Assembly: GCF_002214545.1 (NCBI RefSeq)
Contig: NZ_CP015105.1
Span: 1,674,001-1,738,000, forward strand
Reading direction: 5' to 3'
Source of the DNA: Thermococcus thioreducens
GTDB lineage: Archaea; Methanobacteriota_B; Thermococci; Thermococcales; Thermococcaceae
Length of the DNA: 64,000 nucleotides
Numbering within the stretch: position 1 is the first letter of the stretch; the number at the start of each line of letters is the position of its first letter. A program made the position numbers and the translations under genes. Below, piece by piece: positions 14,270-19,438 of the stretch. The notes below the pieces were generated by a model. It made no database searches and was not told the origin of the DNA. It saw nothing but the letters and a program-made list of their open reading frames with translations.

Positions 14270-15475
14270 ATGGACAAACGGTGGAGTTCAGTCCTGCTTG
14301 ACACGTTGGTTATGACCGCCGGCTTCGGAACCCTGACCATGATGGCGGTCGCAAAGCCAGATGTGATAGCCCACTTCGGAATTGGAAGTGCCGAGTACGA
14401 GTGGCAGCACATAGCTTACGTTTTCGGCCTCTTCATAGCGTTCCTCCTCGGACACACCCGGATATACGAGGGGAGCTTTAAGAAGAGCGTGGCCATAGCG
14501 CTCAGCTGGGCGGCCATAGCGCAGGCGCTCATACCGCTCGCACCCAACTGGTACACCGTCGTCTTCCTCAGGTTCATCCAGGGTTTCGTGGTCACGCTCG
14601 TGCCGCTCTTCAGCACCCAGATAGCACACTTCTTTGTGGCTGAAAGACCCTTCGCCAAGGGCATAATCCTCTCCGGAATCTTCTGGGGAGGTGTCTTCGG
14701 AAGCATAAGCGCCAAGTACGCGGTCGGAGCCTTCGGCTGGAAGGGCGGCTTCTGGGTCACGGTTCTCATAATGTACGCGGTCCTTGCCCTATGGTGGCTC
14801 TTTACGGAGGACTTTGAGATAATCCACAAGACCGAAGGGGGAGAGAGGACAAACGTCTGGAAGATGCCCTTCACTTGGGTGCTGGGCCTCACGTTCTTCC
14901 CGGCCCTGTGGGTGATATTCACGATAGTCGGCTTCTCCTCTTCCCTCGGCTACGATATGGGCTGGACAAAGGAGCACGTCGCAACACTGAGCACGAGCCT
15001 CAACGTATCCAAAGCCCTCTGGAGCATAGGCATGGGCTATGTCGGATATCTGCTCTCAAGGAAGAACCCGAGCGCCAGAGGGCTTTTCAGGGCCATCGTT
15101 CAGGTCATGATATTCTCCTACGCGGTGGCGTTCGTCGGTCTCCTCATCTACGGTAAGGCCATGCTGGTGGGCAACTACAGCCTGGCCCTCGCCTCGGTCG
15201 TCCTCATCGGTGCCCTCCAGGGAACCGGGCCAGCCTTCTGGACCAGCGCACCGGCGACGTATCCAAAGAGCATCTTCCCGAAGGCCAGCTTTGCCCTTGG
15301 ACTCATCTCGAACTCGGCCAACGTCATAGCCCCCGGCCTGACTGACGCCCTCGCCAGGCAGAGCACAGGGCTTGCCCTTGGGGAGCTGGCGGTGATGCCG
15401 CTCCTCGGAATCCTGACGCTGGTCGTCGTATCCAGGATGGGGCTCCCGGTGGAGGAGCTGGGCGATGAGGCCTAA
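14270..15475 (+). CDS. Major facilitator superfamily transporter
   Basis: A 401-residue protein with about twelve hydrophobic spans and a hydrophilic middle loop near residues 178-200 (DFEIIHKTEGGERTN). The family-type basic loop after span 2 is weak (GHTRIYEGSFKK). Substrate is unknown. AGGAGGGATAAAC precedes the ATG. The last eleven bases overlap the next small membrane gene. Confidence 0.85.
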   Translation: MDKRWSSVLLDTLVMTAGFGTLTMMAVAKPDVIAHFGIGSAEYEWQHIAYVFGLFIAFLLGHTRIYEGSFKKSVAIALSWAAIAQALIPLAPNWYTVVFLRFIQGFVVTLVPLFSTQIAHFFVAERPFAKGIILSGIFWGGVFGSISAKYAVGAFGWKGGFWVTVLIMYAVLALWWLFTEDFEIIHKTEGGERTNVWKMPFTWVLGLTFFPALWVIFTIVGFSSSLGYDMGWTKEHVATLSTSLNVSKALWSIGMGYVGYLLSRKNPSARGLFRAIVQVMIFSYAVAFVGLLIYGKAMLVGNYSLALASVVLIGALQGTGPAFWTSAPATYPKSIFPKASFALGLISNSANVIAPGLTDALARQSTGLALGELAVMPLLGILTLVVVSRMGLPVEELGDEA

Positions 15476-15794
15476 ACCCCTCATCGTTTCCTTTTTCGTT
15501 CTTCTTGCGTTCTTTTTCTACGGGATAGCGGCGATGAGCTTCGGAGAGAGGTATAACTTCCCGGGATACGTCGTAGTCGGGAGCATACATCTCCTATTTG
15601 CCTACGGGGTCCGGGTCGGCCACGAGACAATCGTAGACCTTGCGGCGTACATAGCCCTGCTCGACCTGCTCTTCGGACTCCTCTGGGTAATGGTGGGGCT
15701 GTCCCTTCCGGCGGTAACTCTAACCCTCCTCTCGGCCCTGATCCTCTTCGTCCTGATGGACGAGGAAGTGAGGACTGAGCTGAAGATGCCGTAA
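15465..15794 (+). CDS. Small membrane protein, unknown
   Basis: This 109-residue protein has four predicted membrane spans (roughly residues 8-24, 35-50, 55-75 and 80-97) and a short charged tail. I do not recognise a family. It overlaps the MFS gene by eleven bases with its own GGAGG site inside that gene, which supports real translation. Possibly an accessory subunit of the MFS protein; that is a guess from position. Confidence 0.7.
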   Translation: MRPKPLIVSFFVLLAFFFYGIAAMSFGERYNFPGYVVVGSIHLLFAYGVRVGHETIVDLAAYIALLDLLFGLLWVMVGLSLPAVTLTLLSALILFVLMDEEVRTELKMP

Positions 15795-16180
15795 GCAAGC
15801 TTTAACAAAATCTTCCGCCAGCGTTCATTGGGAAGCGAAGTTTCCAGAGGTATTGGGGCTTTCCTCAACATGCGAAGCAAGGGCTGTAAGGGGATGTGGG
15901 GGATTAACCCCCAAAGGATTAGGAAATAAGGAAGGTGGGGAAACGTAGTTTCCCAGGTTTTTAGAGAAAGAGCGGGGCTGTGGGGCGTAGCCCCACTCCA
16001 GGGGTTTGAGAGTACAGAGCAAGCTTTAACAAAGCTTGACCAAAAGTCCGTGATTCCCATTAAGGCTCCTTTGCAAAAGGGATTTCAATTCTAAACTTGG
16101 CCTTTAGAAGGTCGAATCCTCTAAAATAAAGCTTTTCCACGCGAGTTCTACTTGAACCACGCTCCAAAGGAGCGCTAAAA
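15794..16180. repeat. Hairpin-rich non-coding stretch with a 16-bp direct repeat
   Basis: No convincing gene lies between the small membrane gene and the tRNA. AGCAAGCTTTAACAAA occurs at 15794-15809 and again at 16018-16033. Short perfect inverted repeats follow one another: 15897-15913 (6-bp stem), 15938-15954 (7 bp, loop GTA), 15980-15996 (7 bp, loop GTA), 16020-16038 (8 bp, loop AAC), 16068-16080 (5 bp, loop GCA) and 16160-16174 (6 bp, loop AAA). Stem sequences differ from one another. It may be a terminator cluster, a structured RNA or a small non-autonomous repeat. Confidence 0.6.
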
Positions 16181-16290
16181 AACTCGAACCCCCAGAAGAG
16201 CCTTACCCATGACGGATTCACCTCATCCAAACAACTCTAGAAGAAATCCACCCAAAATACACTTTTTCAAAAGGAATCACAAACCTTAAT

Positions 16291-16314
16291 CAAACTTCAC
16301 GCAGGCGAAGTTTG
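16291..16314 (-). terminator. Hairpin just beyond the tRNA-Leu 3' end
   Basis: CAAACTTC and GAAGTTTG form a perfect 8-bp stem with an 8-base loop, beginning two bases beyond the encoded CCA of tRNA-Leu. It could be a processing or stop signal for the tRNA transcript. No clear T-run follows on the minus strand. Confidence 0.4.
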
Positions 16315-16316
16315 TG

Positions 16317-16404
16317 TGGTGCGGGGGCGGGGATTTGAACCCCGGAACCCCTACGGGACGGGACCCTAAATCCCGCGCCTTTGGCCAGGCTCGGCTACCC
16401 CCGC
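16317..16404 (-). tRNA. tRNA-Leu (anticodon UAG)
   Basis: The minus strand folds into a full cloverleaf. The acceptor GCGGGGG pairs with CCCCCGC, followed by discriminator A and an encoded CCA. The D arm reads GCCGAGCCTGGCCAAAGGC, the anticodon stem CGGGA/TCCCG encloses TTTAGGG with anticodon TAG, and a long variable arm precedes CGGGGTTCAAATCCCCG. The long variable arm and anticodon make it a class II leucine tRNA reading CUA codons. No intron is present. Confidence 0.96.
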
Positions 16405-16462: not shown

Positions 16463-16494
16463 GTAAAGGAAGCTTTACGTAAAGGAAACTTTAC
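16463..16494 (+). promoter_or_regulatory. Tandem operator before the XRE/ABC exporter operon
   Basis: Two 16-bp inverted repeats abut with no gap: GTAAAGGAAGCTTTAC and GTAAAGGAAACTTTAC. They differ only in the last base of the spacer. A TATA-like GCATATAATG lies immediately upstream (16451-16460), so the start point should fall within the repeats, as for a repressor that blocks polymerase. The operon encodes an XRE-type regulator, the obvious candidate to bind here. Confidence 0.75.
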
Positions 16495-16506: not shown

Positions 16507-16875
16507 ATGAACCTGAAGTACGAAGGCCTGCTCGCGGTTCTACTCGGGGGGATGGTTATCGGCCTAGCCTACTCAACGAAGTCGGGTAGGGCGTATCTGG
16601 CGGTAGGCATATTCCTCCTGGGAGTCCTACTGGTCTACGCCCTGAACTGGTACTACAACTCCTGGGTGGAGAAGATAGAGGACGAAAGAACAGAGCTGAT
16701 AAGCACCAAGAGCACAAGGAACGCATTTGCTGTAATTAGCGTAGTTCTTTTTGCCGAGTACCTATGGGAGTACTCCAACGGAAACACGGAAACCGCAACG
16801 AAGCTCCTCATTCCACTCGCGCTAGGTGTCCTTGTACTCCTCGTTTCCCAGTACTGGTACGCGAGGGTGATGTGA
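16507..16875 (+). CDS. Membrane protein, DUF2178-like
   Basis: The 122-residue protein has four predicted spans (about residues 8-25, 32-48, 73-87, 97-115) and a charged loop KIEDERTELIS between the second and third. This charged loop followed by TKSTRNAFAV resembles the DUF2178 group that sits beside XRE regulators in archaea. GGTGAT precedes the ATG. It is the first gene of the operon behind the tandem operator. Confidence 0.72.
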   Translation: MNLKYEGLLAVLLGGMVIGLAYSTKSGRAYLAVGIFLLGVLLVYALNWYYNSWVEKIEDERTELISTKSTRNAFAVISVVLFAEYLWEYSNGNTETATKLLIPLALGVLVLLVSQYWYARVM

Positions 16876-17175
16876 GTGAACGAGCTTGCCCTGATTTCGC
16901 TGGTTGCAGTGGTTGGAGGTGGAGTTCTTGGCTATTTCATGATCCGGACGATAATGAAAGATATCGGCGTTCCCACCGACGAGAGGGCCTTTGAGATAGC
17001 CAAGCTCTCGGCGGTGAAAACGCTGAAGCTTGTCCTTTTTGTCACAGTGGCGGCGCTTTACTACTCATGGCTAATCCTCAGGGACGAGCGGTGCACCAAC
17101 CTGGCTACCCTTATATTCGCCACCATATTCTTCGGCAACTTGGCGTTCAGGGCATACTATGCTAAAAGGATGTGA
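16876..17175 (+). CDS. Membrane protein, DUF2178-like paralogue
   Basis: This 99-residue protein has three to four spans and the charged stretch PTDERAFEIAKLSAVKTL, similar in place to the loop of the previous gene. It starts at a GTG directly after the previous stop. It is probably a divergent paralogue; function unknown. The next gene starts five bases after it. Confidence 0.68.
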   Translation: MNELALISLVAVVGGGVLGYFMIRTIMKDIGVPTDERAFEIAKLSAVKTLKLVLFVTVAALYYSWLILRDERCTNLATLIFATIFFGNLAFRAYYAKRM

Positions 17176-17179
17176 GCCC

Positions 17180-17413
17180 ATGAAGAACCGCCTGCGCGAG
17201 CTGAGGGAGGATCTGGGCATAACCCAGGAGGAGCTTGCCAAAGCCCTCGGCGTTACAAGGCAGACGATAATAGCCATCGAGAAGGGCCGTTACGACCCAT
17301 CTCTGAGGCTGGCCTTCAAGATAGCGCGCTTTTTCAACAGGCGGATTGAGGAAATCTTTATCTACGAGGAGGGTCAAAAAGACGCCGGGAGGGCCAAAAA
17401 TGCCCATGGTTGA
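17180..17413 (+). CDS. XRE-family transcription regulator
   Basis: The 77-residue protein is almost wholly a helix-turn-helix: RLRELREDLGITQEELAKAL, then VTRQTIIAIEKGRYDPSLRLAFKIARFF. Small XRE proteins of this type are usually repressors next to DUF2178 membrane proteins and ABC exporters. The ATG lies inside GAGCCCATGAAG; an ATG 21 bases upstream is in the previous gene. It overlaps the ABC ATPase start by 14 bases. It is the likely ligand of the tandem operator. Confidence 0.88.
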   Translation: MKNRLRELREDLGITQEELAKALGVTRQTIIAIEKGRYDPSLRLAFKIARFFNRRIEEIFIYEEGQKDAGRAKNAHG

Positions 17414-18158
17414 AGTTCTGAACCTGGAAAAAGACTACGGGAAGATAAAGGCCCTCAAGGGGATAAGCTTCTCCATCAATGAGGGTGAGATCTTCGGGCT
17501 CATCGGTCCGAACGGTGCGGGAAAGAGCACAACGCTGAAGATCCTCGCAACCCTTCTCAAACCAACCGCGGGAACCGCGAGGATCGACGGCCACGACGTG
17601 GTTAAGGAGGCCGAGAAGGTCAGGGAGATCATCAGCTACCTGCCGGAGGAGGCTGGCGCCTATAAGAACCTGACGGGCTACGAGTACCTCCAGTTCATGG
17701 CCCGGCTCTACGCCAAGGACGAGGGGAAAGCAAGGGAGATGCTCGAACTGGGCGTTGAGCTCAGCGGACTGGGAGAGAGGCTGTACGACAAGGTGTCTAC
17801 GTACTCCAAAGGAATGACGAGGAAGCTGCTCATAGCGAGGGCGCTCATGGTAAAACCCAAGCTCGCGATACTGGACGAACCGGCGAGCGGACTGGACATA
17901 GTCAACGCCTACGCGATAAGGCAGACGATAAGGCGCTTCGCGAGGAGCGAAGGGGTCACGTTCCTCATATCGAGCCACAACATGCTTGAGGTCGAGTTCC
18001 TCTGCAACAGAGTGGCCCTGATAAATAAGGGGCGGATAGTCGAGGTAGGCACGCCGAAAGAGCTGAAGGACAGATACAGCGCGGAGAACCTTGAGGAAGT
18101 CTTCATGAGGGCAGTGGGAGCGAACGTCAGCGAGCCGATAGGGGGTGAAGGAGCTTGA
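17400..18158 (+). CDS. ABC transporter ATP-binding protein (NatA-like)
   Basis: Walker A GPNGAGKST lies near residue 37, the ABC signature reads STYSKGMTRK near residue 138, Walker B LAILDEPASGLD near residue 158, and the switch histidine in ISSHNM near residue 190. The linker and C-terminal helix match ABC-2 exporters. GGAGGG lies seven bases before the ATG. The permease follows with a TTGA overlap. Substrate is unknown; sodium, drug or peptide export are the usual options. Confidence 0.93.
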   Translation: MPMVEVLNLEKDYGKIKALKGISFSINEGEIFGLIGPNGAGKSTTLKILATLLKPTAGTARIDGHDVVKEAEKVREIISYLPEEAGAYKNLTGYEYLQFMARLYAKDEGKAREMLELGVELSGLGERLYDKVSTYSKGMTRKLLIARALMVKPKLAILDEPASGLDIVNAYAIRQTIRRFARSEGVTFLISSHNMLEVEFLCNRVALINKGRIVEVGTPKELKDRYSAENLEEVFMRAVGANVSEPIGGEGA

Positions 18159-19438
18159 GCGACTTCTGGGTGATGGCCAAGAAGGAGCTGTGGAACCTCT
18201 TCAGGGACAAGAAGCTCGTCTTCGGCCTCGTAGTCGTCCCGCTTATACTGCTCCCGGTGATGGGAAAGGCCGTGAACATCGGCATGGAGCAGGCACAGGG
18301 TGAGACCCAGGTCACGATAGTCAACTTCGATGAGGGGGCCTATGGGAATCTGCTGATAAAGGCCTTAAATGTTGCCCCCAACGTCACGGTAACTGTGGTC
18401 AATGCGACGACACTTGATGAGGCCATTCAGCAGGCCACCCAAGAGAAACAGAACGTTCTCGTGGTGATTCCTCCCGACTTCACGGCGAAGCTTCAGGCCA
18501 ACGAAACAGCCACAGTTGGGATATATGGAATTTTCACGACCATAGGCACCGGTATAAAGGAGAGCGTCAGCGAGGGAAGGATAAACGCAGTTTTGGGAAT
18601 ACTCAGCGACGAAATAGCCCGGATAAAGGTGAAGAACCTCGGAGCCAGCAATCCGGACGCCATACTCCAGCCGATAAGGACCGAGAGCAGGTCCGTCATA
18701 AACAACCGTGTCGTGGACATCTCCCCAACTGCGGTTTCAAGCGTTATAGCAGCCCAAGCTTTCACGATACCGCTCATAGTCTTCATGATGGTCATGATAA
18801 CCTCTCAGATGGCGGCTGGAGCAATAGCGAGCGAGAAGGAGAACAAGACCCTCGAAACCCTCCTCACCCTTCCGGTGGCGAGGACGAAGATAGTCACGGC
18901 GAAGATATTCGGGACGGCCATGATGGGACTGGTGGCGGCGGTGGCATACATGGTGGGCATGCGCTACTACATGAGTTCCTTCGGGCTTGGCTCCGGCGGG
19001 GTGAGCCTTGAAGACCTGGGCTTAGTCGTTACCCCAACGGGGGCACTGATGTTCGCCCTGGTGGTGTTCCTGACGATAATAATCGCCCTCAGCCTGGCCA
19101 TGATAGTGGCGACCTTCGCCGAAGACGTGCAGAGTGCAACGACCCTTGTAAGTGCGGTGATTCTCCCGCTGGCGTTCCCGGCTTTCCTGCTGATGTACAC
19201 TGACATCAACGACCTTCCGGCCCTCGTCAGGTACGTCCTGCTGGCAATACCATTCACGCATCCTGTGATAGATTACCGCCATGTGCTCCTGAGCAACTAC
19301 ACGCCGCTGATCATTAGCACCGCTTACCTGGCGGTCCTGGCGCTCCTCGTACTCTACACCACGGCATGGCTGTTCTCCACGGAGAGAATACTCACGGCAG
19401 GGGTCAGCTGGGGCAAGAAGAAAAAGAAGACCGGGTAA
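18155..19438 (+). CDS. ABC-2 type permease (NatB-like)
   Basis: This 427-residue permease has one span near residues 20-37, a large external domain of about 150 residues, then five or six spans from about residue 200. The sequence around IASEKENKTLETLLTLPV is the conserved cytoplasmic coupling segment of ABC-2 exporters. It starts at TTG overlapping the ATPase stop; an ATG 18 bases later is an alternative. It ends the XRE operon. Confidence 0.88.
   Translation: MSDFWVMAKKELWNLFRDKKLVFGLVVVPLILLPVMGKAVNIGMEQAQGETQVTIVNFDEGAYGNLLIKALNVAPNVTVTVVNATTLDEAIQQATQEKQNVLVVIPPDFTAKLQANETATVGIYGIFTTIGTGIKESVSEGRINAVLGILSDEIARIKVKNLGASNPDAILQPIRTESRSVINNRVVDISPTAVSSVIAAQAFTIPLIVFMMVMITSQMAAGAIASEKENKTLETLLTLPVARTKIVTAKIFGTAMMGLVAAVAYMVGMRYYMSSFGLGSGGVSLEDLGLVVTPTGALMFALVVFLTIIIALSLAMIVATFAEDVQSATTLVSAVILPLAFPAFLLMYTDINDLPALVRYVLLAIPFTHPVIDYRHVLLSNYTPLIISTAYLAVLALLVLYTTAWLFSTERILTAGVSWGKKKKKTG

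Follow-up and report, generated by a model that had tools for sequence, protein, structure and literature searches.

Small dispersed hairpin units lying between genes have been described from fungal and sponge mitochondria as DHE and RHE; in the parts of the account that deal with each, no target duplications are reported for the Allomyces elements, and the sponge RHE are said to have conserved stems and variable loops (PMC2800124). MITEs and fold-back elements resemble the repeats considered here in being short, non-coding, multi-copy and intergenic, with inverted terminal ends and without a transposase of their own, and REP/BIME and the palindromic elements of the IS200/IS605 type are likewise palindromic, intergenic and present in many copies. 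tRNA genes serve as safe landing sites for yeast Ty and Dictyostelium TRE, retrotransposons that carry their own genes. Here, we describe from the complete 2.07-Mb genome of the archaeon Thermococcus thioreducens and from its relatives a family of repeats with definite ends that lie flush with tRNA genes in a set polarity, differ between species and carry compensatory changes in their stems. We consider it very likely that this dispersed, tRNA-anchored family consists of non-autonomous palindromic mobile elements targeting the 3' ends of tRNA genes and of some other genes. No description of these elements was found in the open-licence papers searched, and their novelty is provisional.

A hairpin array between an MFS operon and tRNA-Leu(tag)

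Within the 64-kb window, by which we mean the whole stretch of DNA analysed, perfect hairpins with three-base loops are densest at 15794-16180, where the original prediction had placed at least five of them between an MFS operon and tRNA-Leu. The five are present as listed: GGGAAAC-GTA-GTTTCCC (15938-15954, 7 bp), GTGGGGC-GTA-GCCCCAC (15980-15996, 7 bp), CAAGCTTT-AAC-AAAGCTTG (16020-16038, 8 bp), CCTTT-GCA-AAAGG (16068-16080, 5 bp) and CGCTCC-AAA-GGAGCG (16160-16174, 6 bp). The predicted 6-bp stem with a five-base loop, TGGGGG-ATTAA-CCCCCA, lies at 15897-15913 and the predicted 16-bp direct repeat at 15794-15809 and 16018-16033; there is also an extra stem, GGAAGC-GAA-GTTTCC, with one G.T pair (15831-15845). 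The five perfect three-base-loop stems of at least 5 bp compare with 0.59 expected from dinucleotide-keeping shuffles, whose maximum was 4 and of which 0/400 reached five, and for stems of at least 7 bp the count was 3 against 0.07 expected. Ordinary transcription terminators combined with chance palindromes could be looked for at a site between convergent transcription units, but this explanation, to which we give practically no credence, is ruled out by those shuffles and by dispersed copies, whose sequence is conserved although dozens of genomes carry them in unrelated places, as the prediction had anticipated in holding ordinary terminators insufficient.

Side-by-side comparison of the copies distinguishes units of several kinds. 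Element A, about 300 bp long, is bounded by inverted ends of ~48 bp that face inward, each of them a hairpin (for example CAAACTTCGC-CTGC-GCGAAGTTTG, followed by ATCAAAG...GTGATTCC), which pair across ~250 nt around a central hairpin such as GCGCTCC-GAA-GGAGCGC. Paired ~48-bp inward ends, the terminal inverted repeats expected of a MITE, are found in 125 complete copies with a median length of 305 bp, and in 107 of the 125 a central palindrome was detected, its loop lying at the centre of the element (mean offset -0.4, SD 12.6 nt). Element B combines G-rich hairpins, three or four in number, with a conserved GGGGGTTTGAGAGTACAG; full copies are located at 2006339-2006511 and 2002621-2002781 of genome G000. 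Its last ~35 nt (AGAGAGATAAGGGGGCGGAGCCCCCTTGTCTTTCGT; e.g., G000:2006477-2006511) are identical or nearly so in several species, which suggests recent spread or strong constraint. Element C is a double hairpin of 40-43 bp found within terminal hairpins. A second kind of end, type-2 (CAGCCCTT...GCGCTGGCGGAA), follows directly after the CCA of several tRNAs in relatives, and in the copy at the relative locus L071 its partner at the far side is a type-1 end. Two near-identical composite blocks, each of A plus the right end of B, occupy unrelated contexts in G000 (467238-467917 and 1798278-1798662); one adjoins tRNA-Arg(ccg), the other has no tRNA seen nearby, and the duplication looks recent.

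These units fill 15795-16315, from the stop codon of the MFS operon to the CCA end of tRNA-Leu, with the operon and the tRNA gene convergent and the array between their transcription units. The predicted placement is therefore right, but the row is not a single unit: it comprises several elements anchored by the tRNA, and its supposed end at 16180 splits an element A that runs on to 16315. Beginning at the operon, a stub of the distal terminal hairpin of element A (15795-15811) directly abuts the stop codon of a 109-aa ORF (15465-15794); it shares 16 identical bp with the distal terminus of the complete A copy (16018-16033), so that the 16-bp direct repeat represents the distal hairpin arms of two A copies. 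Next comes a type-2 terminal end, CAGCCCTTGCTTCGCA...GAACGCTGGCGGAAG, on the minus strand at 15812-15886, with a nested double hairpin that includes the one at 15831-15845; the layout of this unit equals that of the tRNA-Leu(tag) flank in L071. Element B (~126 bp, plus strand, 15892-16017), recognized by the profile match own_1688290, is without a terminal hairpin and contains the hairpins at 15897-15913, 15938-15954 and 15980-15996 and the conserved GGGGTTTGAGAGTACAG at 16001-16017. A complete element A, a fold-back of ~298 bp on the minus strand, then extends from its distal end at 16018 to its proximal, tRNA-side end at 16315, a folded copy with paired inverted ends at genome coordinates 1690022/1690315. 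Its distal terminal hairpin (16020-16038) is of the end type GCTTG-ACC, its central hairpin is that at 16160-16174, and its tRNA-proximal terminal hairpin, CAAACTTCGC-CTGC-GTGAAGTTTG (16291-16314, minus strand), shows covariation across copies. Only 1-2 nt separate this element from the encoded CCA of tRNA-Leu(tag) (16317-16404, minus strand, identified with ARAGORN), the anchor of the array. In the relative loci L071 and L064, tRNA-Leu(tag) is followed by units of these kinds in other combinations, and L071 has the same convergent neighbour gene.

On the far side of the tRNA gene, two tandem 16-bp palindromes, GTAAAGGAAGCTTTAC and GTAAAGGAAACTTTAC (16463-16494), stand just upstream of an operon (16507-19438) encoding two DUF2178 proteins, an HTH_3 regulator and an ABC-2 transporter, and look like a putative operator of that regulator.

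Distribution and fixed orientation at tRNA 3' ends

The further copies that the original prediction proposed to seek are found at many other sites in T. thioreducens and in the majority of genomes of its genus: an end model detects A-ends in 58/61 genomes, with 10-61 ends each, while matches to the array region in the other families searched are at chance level. No element ends were found in genomes G003, G018 and G070 (the last 74% complete) or in the nine genomes of genus g9, and such element-free genomes are useful for tracing a mobilising gene by comparison. A contig scan with an overly strict pattern, which fixes a five-base spacer, returned two loci, both from one Thermococcus MAG; like the gene content of the window, in which FtsZ and others were recognised by eye, this hit points to Thermococcus. 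A plasmid BLAST gave no match, and viral contigs scanned with one end pattern gave none; the 25 matches of a 15-base B motif in viral contigs are taken as chance.

In T. thioreducens, the encoded CCA is followed within 0-7 nt by an element at 22/45 tRNA genes (23/45 in the relative G001), with A ends, some of them truncated, at twenty and B at two more. All five tRNAs that have a tandem tRNA immediately behind them are empty. Of 293 ends at 110 loci in relatives, 73 are located 1-7 nt past a tRNA, compared to 6 located up to 100 nt from one on the 5' side; the loci having been chosen for holding ends, these proportions do not give a genome-wide rate. B copies also occur at other gene ends, at a distance of 3 nt from the C/D RNA sR36 on its 3' side and immediately behind a stop codon.

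The orientation of the tRNA-adjacent copies is strict. Among 62 non-redundant tRNA-flush copies, the end type GCTT(C/G)-ACC occupies the distal position 40 times and never the proximal one, GTTTG ends are found 36 times proximally and once distally, and the proximal end is nearly always GTTTG-ATC, GTTTG-ACC or GTTTC-ATC; p-values of ~1e-13 to 1e-16 overstate independence because the copies are related, but the pattern is still clear. The proximal terminal stems are perfect, with 0/634 pairs mismatched compared to 12/556 distally. Both features would suit host-functional trailer RNAs, co-transcribed with the tRNA and released by RNase Z after the CCA, that act as structured RNAs or aid processing or termination, and a precedent exists in T. 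kodakarensis, where co-transcription of tRNA-Arg with a snoRNA has been proposed (PMC4247193). Such trailers seem unlikely to us, given that about half of the tRNAs are empty, that occupancy varies between close species and that copies are also found away from tRNAs. Perfect stems could also be the product of template-switch repair at quasi-palindromes and owe nothing to selection.

Comparison of T. thioreducens with G001 illustrates how occupancy varies. At Gln-ttg the A copies of the two are 98% identical, and several loci are vertically inherited while others differ: Pro-cgg is followed by A in T. thioreducens and by a type-2 unit in its relative, His-gtg by B and A, respectively, and Ser-cga, Thr-tgt and Leu-gag are empty in T. 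thioreducens and hold A in G001. At Lys-ttt the two differ by the clean presence or absence of a 40-bp double hairpin in an otherwise matching flank, and the Arg-ccg flanks of T. thioreducens and G069 contain different units inside shared borders. The spacer between the CCA of Thr-ggt and its element is TTCTA, CAA or ACCAG depending on the species, which suggests independent insertions. We infer that differences in occupancy would arise by insertion of mobile copies, the comparisons being between species and the direction of change not being read from them.

At locus L258 (G000:1024900-1034900), tRNA-Val(tac) is interrupted by an ~8-kb insertion that encodes an archaeal integrase (Phage_integr_3), and the displaced 3' fragment of the tRNA keeps element A directly after its CCA. 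Archaeal integrases prefer tRNA 3' ends (PMC8371274), and the elements might on that account be seen as relics of tyrosine-recombinase integration, att scars left by plasmids or viruses, with the A copy at G000:1033913 beside the tRNA-Val fragment of the integrated element as an apparent case. At that very site, however, A travelled with the displaced tRNA 3' end and does not mark the scar. Spacers after the CCA vary, the ends of A are inverted repeats and not direct att sites, and no tRNA 3' duplication is present at the far side of 21 copies, all of which makes an origin as integration scars very improbable.

Compensatory change in DNA or RNA hairpins

Covariation is found at three levels, to each of which common ancestry of the copies contributes. 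In the terminal hairpin, 92% of pairs are standard and 26 cells are changed on both sides compared to 9 expected (0/500 shuffles), in an alignment that is slightly shifted for a few rows; the B hairpins are 98% paired, with 7 double changes, none via G.U; and unusual letters are common to both ends of an element 124 times, compared to 70 for shuffled partners (maximum 95 in 1000). The compensatory base changes in helices by which structured RNAs are recognized, and which the original prediction had proposed to look for in the stems of related genomes, are thus present. They fit DNA and RNA hairpins alike and do not tell them apart.

Other features bear on that choice. Folded as RNA, the sense strand of A is slightly more stable than its composition would lead one to expect (excess -2.7 kcal/mol, p=0.004) and in this respect exceeds the antisense strand, as would suit trailer RNAs, but the excess of G.U over A.C (83 versus 61, p=0.08) is not significant. 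Rfam 15 has no family match in the window, and at the other loci it finds only the neighbouring tRNAs and sR36. On the B strand, 35/36 hairpins of the form GGGGGC...GCCCCC have GNA or GNNA loops (GTTA in 19, GGA in 11), and at the third hairpin position the loop is GNA in 26/29. GNA and GNNA loops closed by C-G form exceptionally stable DNA minihairpins (PMC4686876), and GTTA, the commonest B loop, is no GNRA RNA loop. The GNA and GNNA loops occur only on the strand opposite the tRNA, so that an RNA in the tRNA sense would have UNC loops, which argues further against trailer RNAs; because the copies are homologous, the loop evidence is suggestive only. On balance we favour hairpins formed at the DNA level. 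Given the lack of an Rfam match, the weak G.U bias and loops that fit DNA rules, the structured RNA offered by the original prediction is the less probable alternative, and the elements may still have a role as RNA. Covariation here probably arises in mobile DNA, a warning against taking compensatory changes as proof of RNA.

Proposed movement and comparison with known systems

The mobile repeat that the original prediction had named as a possibility is strongly supported by the dispersed copies, their inverted ends, the variable occupancy of orthologous sites and the nested insertions. We propose that new copies enter 0-7 nt from the encoded CCA of a tRNA in one fixed orientation, and that some may settle at other gene ends (sRNA, stop codons) or inside older terminal hairpins. 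Replacement of tRNA-adjacent copies over time would then yield tRNA-anchored arrays that differ between species, and at tRNA-Leu several elements would have been inserted side by side in the space before the convergent MFS operon. The moving form is probably single-stranded DNA held by very stable minihairpins with GNA or GNNA loops, and movement would presumably depend on an enzyme encoded elsewhere. Among the ends in T. thioreducens, no larger TIR-bounded element encoding proteins was noticed, and no transposase was found linked to the elements. Inspection by eye of the junctions of 21 copies revealed no target-site duplication, and the orthologous comparisons showed none either. More tentatively, and with considerable doubt, we raise the possibility of a genus-wide archaeal system in which movement as single-stranded DNA minihairpins is steered in fixed polarity to the tRNA CCA, forming a class outside described transposition mechanisms.

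A more familiar arrangement would be palindrome-associated elements of the IS200/IS605 type, or REP/BIME, moved by a Y1 transposase, in keeping with the hairpin ends, the small size, the lack of visible target-site duplication and a logic of single-stranded hairpins. Element A, however, ends on either side in inverted repeats, a feature not known from IS200/IS605 elements, and Y1_Tnp is missing from T. thioreducens and from several of the richest carriers such as G056, G058 and G061, leaving this arrangement improbable. Y1_Tnp (PF01797) occurs in 25/94 genomes of the family and is absent from most carriers; its distribution does not track the elements, which speaks against a Y1 transposase as the current mobiliser.

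In the two genomes counted, elements stand at the 3' ends of about half the tRNA genes. If the targeting is real, the family would be an archaeal counterpart of tRNA-directed retrotransposons and a natural experiment on the mobility of DNA hairpins at high temperature, and it would call for caution in RNA-seq, tRNA-processing and integration studies in Thermococcus. With Ty and TRE the elements share position-specific landing at tRNA genes, but they are non-coding DNA repeats of ~40-300 bp lying flush with the CCA, whereas Ty and TRE are much larger. Compared to MITEs, no target-site duplication is seen, the ends are complete hairpins, orientation at tRNA 3' ends is fixed and there is no known autonomous partner; compared to REP/BIME, this genome has no Y1 transposase, and no GTAG-type REP signature was noticed. 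The closest analogues among the literature searched are DHE and RHE, as far as the parts of their account that cover them extend: these too are dispersed hairpin units without target duplication, and the double hairpin of DHE resembles element C, but they belong to organelles and not to an archaeal genome, the sponge RHE differ from the present elements, in which stems vary by compensation and loops stay GNA or GNNA, and targeting of the tRNA CCA with polarity, as found here, is not among the features those parts describe (PMC2800124).
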